A model generated the notes under the pieces. That model was given only the letters and a program-made list of their open reading frames with translations, was not told the DNA's origin and did no database searches. Below, piece by piece: positions 6,279-12,132 of a stretch of 12,615 bases of DNA; the first letter of the stretch is position 1; each line of letters opens with the position of its first letter. Location of the stretch: the NCBI GenBank assembly GCA_937890045.1, contig CALBXV010000633.1:1-12615 (forward strand), written 5' to 3'. The stretch is from an uncultured archaeon. Lineage in GTDB: Archaea > Thermoproteota > Nitrososphaeria > Nitrososphaerales > CALBXV01. Made by a program: the position numbers and the translations under genes.

Positions 6279-6542
6279 TTGAATAATGATATTCCTGAAA
6301 CTAAATTTAATGTAAAAATTTATCAAAAAGATAAAGCGTTACGAGTTGCTAAATCTGCTAAAGAAGCATTAAAAGGTGTAGTTAGTAAGAAAAAGATTAG
6401 TATTTTACAAAAAGACACTATTCATTGTCCACTTATTGATTCCGAAAGATCTTTTGTTGAATGTTTTGCTTGTGAATCATTTATTAGAAGAGTTACTGGT
6501 GAAGTTCACTGTTCTGGAATAAAAGCAACAATTTTTAAATAA
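6279..6542 (+). CDS. Small Cys/His-rich protein, possible zinc or iron-sulfur binder
   Basis: I do not recognise this 87-residue protein. The first half is basic and probably helical (KDKALRVAKSAKEALKG). The second half holds four cysteines and two adjacent histidines: HC at 49-50, CFAC at 62-65 and HC at 77-78. The pattern C-x11-C-x2-C-x12-C looks like a single zinc-ribbon or metal site. No ATG is present in frame. TTG at 6279 is the best start, since an in-frame TAA lies at 6264-6266 and a TATA-like tttaaata at 6246-6253 would place transcription start almost exactly on this TTG (a leaderless message). It is divergent from aspS across a 132-base spacer and converges with the dehydrogenase, whose end is only three bases away. 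Codon use matches its neighbours, so it looks like a real gene. Confidence 0.72.
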   Translation: MNNDIPETKFNVKIYQKDKALRVAKSAKEALKGVVSKKKISILQKDTIHCPLIDSERSFVECFACESFIRRVTGEVHCSGIKATIFK

Positions 6543-7366: not shown

Positions 7367-7813
7367 TTATTTGAACATCTCATTCCACTTCTTACATACA
7401 TAATATGCTTGTTTCCAAAAACCTATGGAAGGTGCTCTTTGTGGAATATCAAAAATGTTGCTTGTATATAAATACAAAGTTTTTTTTCTACTATCATCCC
7501 ATATAGGAACGTTTTTACTTATGAATCCTAAATCTAATAATGTTCTTAATATTGTCATGTAAAAATTTCTTCTACTATATTTAAATTCTACACCATCTTT
7601 ATTGTAAAAATTACTTTGTAAATCATCTGCAAATTTACTCACTGCGTTTTTTGTAGCTTTCCCATCTCTTTTCTTTAACCAATCAATAAAAAATTTTGCG
7701 GCATCTCGTGTTCTTCCCTTAGGAAATATTATCTCTATCGCAGTATCTGAAGCATAAATATTCTCTTCTGAAAATCTTGATTTTATACTTCTTTGAGTTG
7801 CTATTGCAGCCAT
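7367..7813 (-). CDS. Conserved-looking 148-residue protein, possible winged helix
   Basis: I do not recognise this family. The protein is soluble, basic and has no membrane segment. Residues 36-70 (RDAAKFFIDWLKKRDGKAT and on) and 80-100 (SRRNFYMTILRTLLDLGFI) look like helices, followed by NVPIWDDSRKKTLYLY, which could be the beta-hairpin wing of a winged-helix domain. The C-terminal third is aromatic (SIGFWKQAYYVCKKWNEMF). Its size and style resemble archaeal DNA-binding or small regulatory proteins, but no catalytic or metal motif is present. The start is the ATG at 7811-7813; no alternative start lies near. It is followed by the dehydrogenase gene on the same strand after about 50 bases and preceded by a 134-base spacer. 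Function unknown. Confidence 0.78.
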   Translation of the reverse strand: MAAIATQRSIKSRFSEENIYASDTAIEIIFPKGRTRDAAKFFIDWLKKRDGKATKNAVSKFADDLQSNFYNKDGVEFKYSRRNFYMTILRTLLDLGFISKNVPIWDDSRKKTLYLYTSNIFDIPQRAPSIGFWKQAYYVCKKWNEMFK

Positions 7814-9835: not shown

Positions 9836-10471
9836 CTAAACCTTTAACTTTTTATAAATTAATTTAAGTGAACCTGCTATTGCTCCATAAATAGCACTAT
9901 GTATATTTTTAGACCCTGATATTATTATTACATCATTATCGCTTAAAATAAATTTAGTTCTTAATTCATTCCAAATAATATCTGGATAATCTTTTTCACA
10001 GTTATTACTTCCACCAGGAATACAAAACTCATTATTTTTTATTACTAAACTTATTATTCCTGTTGCACCTGCTATTATTCCAGCGTCTCTTTCTATTATT
10101 CCATGTTTTATCAAATGACCGCAATTTCTTACTTTTATTATAATGTTGTGCTTGTCTATTGTTAATTTTCCAACCGGTAATTCTTTCCATTCAGAAATTA
10201 GATTTTTTAATTCTTCGTATAATTTAATACCGTTGCTAGTTAATTCACATCCTTCAGTTGTAATCGTAATTAAGTTTAAATTAACTAAAATTTTTAATAA
10301 GGTTCTAACTGATCCTTCTCCTATCCCTATTATTTTAGATAATCTAACTCTTCCAATTTTGTTAGTTGCTACTATTATGTATGCTAAAATTATATGTGTT
10401 GGGGCAAATTTTGGATTAGGACCTAATGAATTTAATTCATTAATAACTTTCAAAAAAGACTTTAATTCCAA
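9836..10471 (-). CDS. DUF4443-type protein with N-terminal winged helix; candidate regulator
   Basis: The 211-residue protein appears to have two parts. Residues 1-95 form a winged-helix region: LGPNPKFAPTHIILAYIIV, then GRVRLSKIIGIGEGSVRTLL, where the GEGSVRTLLKIL helix looks like the DNA-recognition helix, and a wing ending ITTEGCELTSNG. Residues 105-211 are an alpha/beta domain with CGHLIKHGIIERDAGIIAGA and ATGIISLVIKNNEFCIPGG, like the DUF4443/DUF2111-related families of archaea, which may sense a small ligand. It is divergent from the transcobalamin-like/ECF/adenosyltransferase operon with about 78 bases between starts, a common arrangement for a local regulator. Regulation of cobalamin uptake is an inference only. 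The start is TTG at 10469-10471, about 25 bases after a TATA-like tttaataa; no in-frame ATG is available before the conserved domain. Confidence 0.8.
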   Translation of the reverse strand: MELKSFLKVINELNSLGPNPKFAPTHIILAYIIVATNKIGRVRLSKIIGIGEGSVRTLLKILVNLNLITITTEGCELTSNGIKLYEELKNLISEWKELPVGKLTIDKHNIIIKVRNCGHLIKHGIIERDAGIIAGATGIISLVIKNNEFCIPGGSNNCEKDYPDIIWNELRTKFILSDNDVIIISGSKNIHSAIYGAIAGSLKLIYKKLKV

Positions 10472-10529: not shown

Positions 10530-10546
10530 GGATGGTTTATCCATCC
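10530..10546. promoter_or_regulatory. Candidate operator: GGATGG-TTTAT-CCATCC inverted repeat
   Basis: Perfect six-base arms, 10530-10535 and 10541-10546, flank a five-base spacer. The repeat lies wholly between the TATA box and the predicted transcription start, where a bound protein would block RNA polymerase. Its G/C-containing arms stand out in this AT-rich DNA. It would not be part of the message if transcription starts at about 10550, so a DNA operator is more likely than an RNA hairpin. The divergent winged-helix protein is the obvious candidate binder. Confidence 0.5.
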
Positions 10547-10549
10547 TAT

Positions 10550-11008
10550 ATGTCTAAACAAAAACCTCTTGTTTTCTTTTGTATAATACTAATAATATCT
10601 CTTACAATTATATTGGGTTATTATCTCAAAATCAACTATTTTGATAAAAAACATGTTATTAATTATACTGACAAAAATATAATCTCTGTCAACCTTCTTA
10701 TCAAATATGATTCAAATAATCTTGTTTGGTATAATAATTCTCGTACAAATGTTGGAAATTCATTATTTAATCTAACTAATGAATTATTTGTAGTTGATTA
10801 TTCTGAGTCTTCTTTAGGTGTATATGTTAAATCTATTAATTCTGTAAATGAAATTCCTAATAATGTATATTGGTTATGGTGGTTATGGGATGAAGATCTT
10901 GGTTGGATACAAGGCCAAGTTAGCTCTAATCAATTTATTTTAGAAAATAATTCCACTGTAGCTTGGTATTTACAAGACCCATATGAATCTGATCTGATTT
11001 ATGAATGA
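10550..11008 (+). CDS. Membrane-anchored transcobalamin-like (DUF4430) domain protein
   Basis: The protein is 152 residues from the ATG at 10550. A single hydrophobic segment at about residues 7-26 anchors it, without an obvious lipobox, and the rest faces outward. Residues 46-143 match the DUF4430/transcobalamin C-terminal-like pattern: a strand with NVGNSLFNLTNE, then LGVYVKSINSV, the diagnostic aromatic block NNVYWLWWLWD, a tail of strands, and FILENNSTVAWYL at the end. In transcobalamin and intrinsic factor this domain closes over the cobalamin; bacterial DUF4430 proteins are often encoded with ECF transporters. Here it overlaps an ECF S component by eight bases and is followed by a cobalamin adenosyltransferase, so a corrinoid-capturing surface protein is the best guess. 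An in-frame ATG at 10532 would add six residues, but it lies inside the inverted repeat and before the predicted transcription start. Confidence 0.78.
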   Translation: MSKQKPLVFFCIILIISLTIILGYYLKINYFDKKHVINYTDKNIISVNLLIKYDSNNLVWYNNSRTNVGNSLFNLTNELFVVDYSESSLGVYVKSINSVNEIPNNVYWLWWLWDEDLGWIQGQVSSNQFILENNSTVAWYLQDPYESDLIYE

Positions 11009-11579
11009 AAAAAATGTTAAAATCCGTTTAGCTCTAGCTTCAGCCTTAATTGCTACTAGTGTTTCTACTCGTATAATTCTTGTTAGTCTTCCTAATATTA
11101 AGTTAGTTTCATTTATAACAATACTTTCTGGTATTATTGGTGGTCCTTTTCTTGGATTTCTTGTTGGATTATTTTCCATATTATTGACTGATATTTTCTA
11201 TTTTGGAGTAGGTTTTTGGACAGTTATCACTTCATTATCTATGAGTCTTATTGGCATTCTATCTGGTTTTATTTGGTATAAATCTTCTAATATTCCTTCT
11301 AAACTTCAATTGGGTATTTTCGGATGTTTACTTACATTATTATATGATGTACTTACTTCTATTCTCTCTTTACCTGTATTATTTAATTTATTATATGGGA
11401 ATTTTGATAAATTTTGGTTTCTAATAGGTAATTTGTTAATAGGATTATTCTTACCACTTGGAGGTTTTCTATGGCCAGCAGGACCAGCACATGAACTTTT
11501 TACAGCGTTATTATTAGTCTTTATAGGTCCAACATTAATCAGAAGAATTAAATTAATCCTTAATGATAAATATAATTAA
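11001..11579 (+). CDS. ECF transporter S component, probable corrinoid (B12/cobinamide) specificity
   Basis: This 192-residue membrane protein has about six spans and fits the substrate-capturing S component of energy-coupling factor importers. The N-terminal helix carries RLALASALIATSVSTRI, including the Ala-x3-Ala motif (Ala11, Ala15) that contacts EcfT. Then come LPNIKLVSF, GIIGGPFLGFLVGLFS and ILLTDIFYFGVGFWT, the typical loop and helix-3 pattern, and LIGILSGFIWY. A Pro/Gly-rich LPLGGFLWPAGPAHELF lies near the end. Ligand specificity cannot be read from the motif alone. The neighbours, a transcobalamin-like protein upstream and a cob(I)alamin adenosyltransferase downstream, point to a corrinoid. 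No EcfA ATPases or EcfT are encoded here, so a shared energising module elsewhere is expected. The ATG overlaps the end of the upstream gene (ATGAATGA), showing tight translational coupling. Confidence 0.85.
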   Translation: MNEKNVKIRLALASALIATSVSTRIILVSLPNIKLVSFITILSGIIGGPFLGFLVGLFSILLTDIFYFGVGFWTVITSLSMSLIGILSGFIWYKSSNIPSKLQLGIFGCLLTLLYDVLTSILSLPVLFNLLYGNFDKFWFLIGNLLIGLFLPLGGFLWPAGPAHELFTALLLVFIGPTLIRRIKLILNDKYN

Positions 11580-11586
11580 AGATATT

Positions 11587-12132
11587 ATGAAAATATATAC
11601 AAAAGTTGGTGATAAAGGAAAAACTAATCTGTATGGGAATATGGTTAGTAAATCTGATATTAGAATTGATGCTTATGGTACTATTGATGAATTAAACTCG
11701 TTTATAGGTCTAGCAGATAGTTTTAATAAAAATCACTTTATTCATGATATACTAATTAAAGTTCAGAACGAACTTTTTATTATAGGATCAGATTTGTCTC
11801 ATTCTTATAAAAATGAAATAAATTCTAATATGAAAATAGTTAAAGAAAATATAGTTACTTTAGAAAAATTTATTGATGATACAGATAAAAAAATACTCAA
11901 ACTTACTAATTTTATTCTTCCTTCGGGTTCTAATGTTGCTGCTTTTCTTCATGTATGCCGTTCACTATGCAGAAAAGCTGAACGTAAAATTGTTTTACTT
12001 TCTGAAAAATATTCTGTTAATTCACTATCTTTAATTTATCTTAATCGTTTATCTGATTTACTTTTTGTTTTAGCTAGATATTCAAATAATTTAGAAGATT
12101 GTGAAGAATTAATTTGGAATTCTAAATCATAA
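11587..12132 (+). CDS. Cob(I)alamin adenosyltransferase, PduO type
   Basis: The enzyme transfers the 5'-deoxyadenosyl group of ATP to cob(I)alamin or cobinamide, making the coenzyme form. The protein is 181 residues and all PduO-family blocks are present: MKIYTKVGDKGKTNLYG at the N-terminus for ATP binding, AYGTIDELNSFIGLA (29-43), FILPSGSNVAAFLHVCRS (109-126) with CRSLCRKAER (124-133) carrying the catalytic arginines, and LNRLSDLLFVLAR (152-164). An upstream in-frame ATG at 11563 would add eight residues and overlap the S-component gene. I chose 11587 because family members start exactly at MKIYTKxGDxG and this gives a seven-base gap. Physical linkage to the ECF S component suggests it adenosylates imported corrinoids, trapping them in the cell. 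Confidence 0.94.
   Translation: MKIYTKVGDKGKTNLYGNMVSKSDIRIDAYGTIDELNSFIGLADSFNKNHFIHDILIKVQNELFIIGSDLSHSYKNEINSNMKIVKENIVTLEKFIDDTDKKILKLTNFILPSGSNVAAFLHVCRSLCRKAERKIVLLSEKYSVNSLSLIYLNRLSDLLFVLARYSNNLEDCEELIWNSKS

Follow-up and report, generated by a model that had tools for sequence, protein, structure and literature searches.

A predicted corrinoid-acquisition operon with an ECF S component, a transcobalamin-like surface protein and a palindromic operator in an archaeon

Genes and features of the locus

The window, i.e. the whole stretch of DNA that was analysed, comprises 12,615 bases with a G+C content of 26% and is archaeal, since it carries an archaeal RNase P RNA at positions 275-556. 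An ORF called at 275-463 on the plus strand sits within this RNA and is probably no gene. Two further ORFs, at 7367-7813 (minus strand) and 6279-6542 (plus strand), encode 148 and 87 amino acids and had no significant Pfam match. The features considered here are the following:

9836-10471, minus strand, divergent: DUF4443/PH0730-like winged-helix protein proposed to regulate the operon
10530-10546, in the gap between gene 1 and the divergent gene: palindromic operator GGATGG-TTTAT-CCATCC
10550-11008, plus strand: gene 1, membrane-anchored surface protein
11001-11579, plus strand: gene 2, ECF transporter S component, predicted to bind a corrinoid
11587-12132, plus strand: gene 3, PduO-type corrinoid adenosyltransferase

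The three plus-strand ORFs lie where an earlier sequence-only reading of this DNA had placed them. Genes 1 and 2 overlap by 8 bases, as had been stated, and gene 3 begins 7 bases past the end of gene 2, given a start at its second in-frame ATG (11587); the longest ORF starts at 11563. For gene 1 a start at 10550 is likelier, because the other in-frame ATG (10532) sits within the palindrome. The operator at 10530-10546 and the divergent gene at 9836-10471 did not appear in the earlier reading.

Gene 1 encodes 152 residues, with a hydrophobic stretch beginning at residue 8, and had been described as having a transcobalamin-like DUF4430 pattern. As a profile match of the gene's own sequence this did not stand, since no match to PF14478 (DUF4430) was obtained in Pfam at E values of up to 1, but the assignment was recovered through relatives and through the predicted fold. 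BLASTP aligned gene 1 with proteins from loci L001 and L003 (E 1e-11 and 9e-11), which are neighbours of S genes and reach PF14478 at 48 and 52 bits (cut-off 24). The predicted fold, for which one of five structure models was of useful confidence, was that of the transcobalamin beta domain and matched transcobalamin, intrinsic factor and haptocorrin at 12-18% identity to their beta domains; the transcobalamin-like fold expected of this protein was thus found. Gene 1 is, as judged from this homology and the model, probably a divergent DUF4430 relative that resembles the transcobalamin beta domain. Searches with the single protein yielded only four proteins, 86-95% identical, and relatives therefore had to be reached via gene 2. 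PDB sequence searches with genes 1 and 2 gave nothing useful, and no relative of the L003 DUF4430 protein was present in a plasmid collection.

Gene 2 was identified as an ECF S component, as had been proposed, by PF07155 with 35.9 bits (cut-off 26.7), and its product has the S-component membrane fold. The Ala-x3-Ala motif is present as A11 and A15; position 15 is Thr in the proteins P0009 and P0010. The nearest solved folds were the S components for riboflavin, folate, thiamine, biotin and pantothenate, and the best NCBIfam matches were S models of the folate and riboflavin types, both far below cut-off. Only the broad PF07155 was over its cut-off, and a clear assignment to a family for another vitamin was thus not obtained. 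CbrT (6FNP) was not among the PDB sequence or fold matches of gene 2, an absence that excludes nothing.

Gene 3 was found to be of the PduO type by PF01923 (184 bits, cut-off 24) and TIGR00636 (188 bits, cut-off 108), again in agreement with the earlier assignment, and has solved PduO relatives. Both the N-terminal TKxGDKG loop and the NRLSD motif of PduO-type enzymes are kept, the former as TKVGDKG at residue 5 and the latter at residue 153, numbered from the start at 11587. Relatives of gene 3 were scored among the 7,996 candidates sharing most words. The best 120 listed comprised the window cluster itself, one copy of 96% identity and 118 proteins of 46-54% identity; five of these 120 were named by organism, all bacterial.

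The S-DUF4430 pair in related archaea

A profile search for the S component was carried out in 398 genomes of the phylum, of which 102 matched with 109 rows. Examined were 97 of the 109 rows, i.e. all but the 12 weakest, consisting of the best 30, 10 from operator-search loci and 57 others. Of these 97 loci, 85 have a DUF4430-like ORF next to the S gene or close by (30/30 of the best, 10/10 of the operator-search loci and 45/57 of the others), and at 12 none was found. The 45 include a weak case (L217) and two loci at which the DUF4430 ORF does not abut the S gene, lying about 1.0 kb off in L232 and about 0.6 kb off in L251. The two genes are arranged in tandem or convergently, 18 of the best 30 loci being convergent and 12 tandem. 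They overlap or abut in the tandem lineages, the window among them.

The gene content of 42 pair genomes was determined, namely those of the 30 best S matches and of 12 pairs from GGATGGNNNNNCCATCC loci; other pair loci were left out. PF14478 matches were obtained in 34 of the 42, over cut-off in 33, and were located at the S site, with one extra match elsewhere in G097. EcfT was present in 41 of the 42 genomes, so that the EcfT required by the proposal was found in the relatives, and EcfA-like ORFs lay beside EcfT in L006, the single EcfT locus that was opened. The gene cbiC occurred in only one pair genome (G151), compared with 29 of 60 genomes lacking an S match (the first 60 handles; Fisher p 1.1e-7, uncorrected for phylogeny or completeness). 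CobS was present in 15 of the 42 and gave no match in 27. From the distribution of EcfT and cbiC, the tested pair-bearing archaea seem for the most part to be auxotrophic for corrin and to possess an ECF motor, and the genome of the window may be in the same state.

Conservation of the order of all three genes had also been considered. The S-DUF4430 pair is conserved, but PduO is not, being present in one of the 42 pair genomes and there located away from the pair. No PduO ORF was found in L001-L058 or L195-L251, and PduO was rejected as a member of the conserved unit. Owing to this rarity it seems to have been added late in the lineage of the window, possibly from bacteria, and such an addition would fit an adenosylcobalamin-dependent enzyme there.

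The operator, its regulon and a candidate regulator

The operator of the window is an exact copy of GGATGGTTTATCCATCC, located at 10530-10546 just upstream of the likely start of gene 1, and is the sole exact GGATGGNNNNNCCATCC match in the window. A longer pattern allowing up to 3 mismatches matched at this place only, on both strands, while the mean expected by chance was 0.06 matches. The same palindrome occurs in relatives upstream of S genes and of convergent DUF4430 genes. A search for TGGATGGWTNANCTATCCA with up to 2 mismatches in the 18 convergent genomes of the best 30, which were picked after the box had been seen, found the operator at both promoters in 18/18, mostly as a one-base variant in which CTATCC replaces CCATCC; in the same 18 genomes three single matches were obtained with the reversed control pattern. 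Among the best 30, the 12 tandem loci had no GGATGG box; of the 57 further regions, 15 had it with up to one mismatch. The box, present at 18/30 of the best S loci, is therefore not universal. In some other lineages the S promoter bears a related palindrome whose arms are GGAT and ATCC.

Outside the pair, the 18 genomes contained 23 operator places, of which 18 (16 regions) were fetched and 5, with two mismatches and poor symmetry, were omitted. The 16 regions hold 19 operator sites. Seven were by BtuF-like genes and five by MtaB-like genes, the latter 164-195 bases ahead of the called ORF start. One site each was by CobT, a cobaltochelatase ATPase, a TrpD-like gene and another ECF S component, and three sites (two in L098, one in L095) were without an informative gene. 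Ten representatives of the operator-linked genes were scanned with profiles, and the remaining MtaB and BtuF names were given by eye. CobT reached 381 bits with TIGR00303 (cut-off 240), the cobaltochelatase 830 with TIGR02442 (779) and TrpD 257 (199), while MtaB scored 628 in Pfam (25) and 709 in NCBIfam, just short of the cut-off of 720. The three BtuF-like proteins scanned were over cut-off for Peripla_BP_2 and below it for the NCBIfam BtuF model; for the protein from L094 the model of the heme binder IsdE scored slightly above that of BtuF.

Across the 398 genomes GGATGGNNNNNCCATCC matched in 87 and the reversed control in 33 (row counts), and lone GGATGGNNNNNCCATCC matches are weak for this reason. 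An S-DUF4430 pair lay directly downstream in 12 of the 30 loci returned. Five loci had a BtuF-like gene and one a BtuC-like gene, all six named by eye; one of the five, L163, is the same site as L094. At seven loci the site was within an ORF and looks like a chance match, and at five no informative gene was called.

Several further arrangements were observed at these sites. In L101, L102 and L096 the operator separates a corrinoid gene from a divergent apgM-like gene for a phosphoglycerate mutase, and at the CobT site the divergent gene is apgM-like; a similar ORF was recognised by eye in L135. Such apgM-like genes may serve corrinoid metabolism in a way so far unrecognised. In L138, L153 and L100 the operator lies between a btuF-like gene and a divergent ORF that is CobZ/PgpA-like by eye. 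Directly behind an operator-like site, L104:3100-3582 encodes a second, different ECF S component (PF12822), which is a further candidate for a corrinoid or a precursor. In L098 (G151:C29) two operator-like boxes are separated by about 1 kb, and their contig carries cbiC and a CbiQ/EcfT gene as well.

The divergent gene at 9836-10471 matched PF14544 with 73.1 bits (cut-off 27), PF22167 with 40.7 (30.2) and PF21715 with 38.1 (30), has an N-terminal winged helix and aligned with PH0730 (PDB 2p8t), to which it is homologous over most of its length, at E 1.4e-12. PF14544 was present in 28 of 30 pair genomes. It was found in 23 of 24 operator genomes versus 20 of 24 genomes without an operator or S match, and since the family is nearly as common in the latter, its presence alone says little; presence was dropped as evidence for the regulator, and only adjacency and covariation were counted. 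A DUF4443-like ORF was near the S-DUF4430 pair, in tandem or divergent, at 27 of the 97 loci (4/30 of the best, 2/10 and 21/57), the 21 having been detected with a profile for which the window protein was the seed, and not with PF14544. In G160 such an ORF follows a BtuD-like ORF (by eye), and the operator and a BtuC-like gene are located a few kilobases upstream of it. An operator-like site at the gene's own start was present for one of 66 DUF4443 ORFs.

In the aligned winged helices the residue pair in the putative recognition helix was Arg-Thr in 30/30 proteins from operator genomes, the window included, versus Arg-Gly in 4/4 from genomes with another palindrome, phylogeny being uncontrolled; kinship could explain part of this pattern. 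Of 46 proteins set aside, 15 had Arg-Thr, at least 5 of them in genomes where the operator was not matched (G020, G030, G035, G037 and G050). The other palindrome, of the ATAGGCAA/TTGCCTAT type, lies at the S promoter in L042-L044, L047 and L048, and in four of these genomes a DUF4443 gene with Arg-Gly in the recognition helix is adjacent. By linkage and covariation, the DUF4443 protein is most likely what binds GGATGG-N5-CCATCC.

Proposed function and alternatives

Gene families, folds, linkage and operator sharing, together with the presence of EcfT and the absence of cbiC in relatives, were computed directly. Corrinoid import by the S-DUF4430 pair, the core of the sequence-only reading, is strongly supported by these independent computational lines: the linkage at 85 of 97 loci, the operator held in common with cobT, cobaltochelatase, mtaB and btuF-like genes, EcfT in 41 of 42 and cbiC in 1 of 42 pair genomes. 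With high confidence, the three genes are regarded as one repressible operon for corrinoid acquisition, comprising capture, ECF import, adenosylation and control through the palindrome. Gene 1 would be anchored in the membrane on the outer face and would capture a cobamide or cobinamide there, and hand it over to gene 2. This S component, whose binding and transport of a corrinoid are inferred from its regulon and partners, would carry the ligand across the membrane together with a shared EcfA-EcfA'-EcfT module, the genes of which lie elsewhere. The added PduO enzyme would make the adenosyl form in the cytoplasm, and the palindrome would control transcription according to corrinoid supply, most likely via the divergent DUF4443 winged-helix protein.

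The nature of the ligand admits other readings. The S component could carry a precursor or lower-ligand part (cobinamide, alpha-ribazole or benzimidazole) instead of complete cobamides, with the surface protein only tuning selectivity. CobT and, by eye, CobZ-like genes at the operator agree with this, as does CobS, needed to finish cobinamide, in 15 of the 42 pair genomes. The surface protein nevertheless resembles a binder of whole corrinoids, and in the 27 genomes without a CobS match the import of complete cobamides is simpler, so that a precursor is considered an unlikely cargo. Import of riboflavin, folate or a similar vitamin by a pair merely co-regulated with corrinoid genes is very improbable. 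PF07155 is named for riboflavin, the similarity to folate-type and riboflavin-type models lies below cut-off, and RibU and FolT are among the nearest solved folds, but the operator neighbours that could be identified are for the most part corrinoid genes, the fold of the partner is transcobalamin-like and PduO comes after the pair in the window.

Two further alternatives leave corrinoid as the ligand and concern the parts of the system. If the surface DUF4430 protein were a corrinoid sensor or store that passes nothing to the S component, no fixed operon would be needed, as in the 18 of the best 30 loci with convergent, separately transcribed genes. The tandem genes of other lineages, including the window, overlap or abut, however, and the separate genes have the operator in common, which makes a sensor or store decidedly unlikely. 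A regulator other than the DUF4443 protein is possible, if rather unlikely: the family is widespread whether the operator is present or absent, its own starts almost never bear the site and the Arg-Thr pair also occurs where no operator was matched, whereas proximity to the pair at 27/97 loci, the arrangement in G160 and the split between Arg-Thr and Arg-Gly, with the reservation on phylogeny given above, point to DUF4443. With moderate confidence, the DUF4443 family is proposed as an archaeal corrinoid-responsive regulator which recognises GGAT/ATCC palindromes and governs a corrinoid regulon (the S-DUF4430 pair, btuF, cobT, cobaltochelatase and methanol:corrinoid methyltransferase).

The preferred reading, a corrinoid-acquisition operon, has a bacterial counterpart. 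CbrT of Lactobacillus delbrueckii is described in PMC5997447 as an ECF S component transporting cobalamin and cobinamide, in an nrdJ-cbrS-cbrT-pduO cluster. In L. rhamnosus, according to PMC9963975, the gene of a DUF4430 protein adjoins rtpR, and a protein is named there an 'additional lipoprotein component of putative cobalamin ECF transporter'; partly from this, CbrS is probably a DUF4430 lipoprotein. The archaeal system represents a variant of this bacterial ECF cluster for cobalamin. An S component is followed by pduO in both L. delbrueckii and the window, while the archaeal pair differs in its palindromic operator and in the N-terminal hydrophobic anchor of the surface protein. Compared with transcobalamin, the gene 1 protein is membrane-anchored and its length leaves no room for the large N-terminal domain. 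Archaeal BtuFCD, of which a putative form is reported for Bathyarchaeia (PMC11697101), serves the same nutrient class with a Peripla_BP_2 binder and an ABC permease, whereas the window system uses an ECF S component and a DUF4430-type protein. The ECF route does not take the place of BtuF, since 7 of the 18 genomes searched have btuF-like genes downstream of the GGATGG operator; a btuC-like gene, by eye, is also under it. In the survey results of PMC11697101, Bathy-6 has B12 synthesis genes and most Bathy-8 genomes have only BtuFCD and salvage, and an ECF route is not mentioned alongside these results. In the open-licence literature we found no link of Bathyarchaeia, cobalamin and ECF, no transcobalamin-like proteins joined to ECF in bacteria, no function for the DUF4443 family, and neither the archaeal operator nor a regulatory role of DUF4443 described.

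The pair provides a candidate uptake system for the pair-bearing archaea tested, which nearly always lack cbiC yet have corrinoid genes. The questions of where these archaea get B12-type cofactors from and by what means they sense them thereby become testable, and the operator can also be used to search for more genes of corrinoid metabolism. If the proposed regulation is true, the DUF4443 protein would do in these archaea what cobalamin riboswitches do in bacteria.
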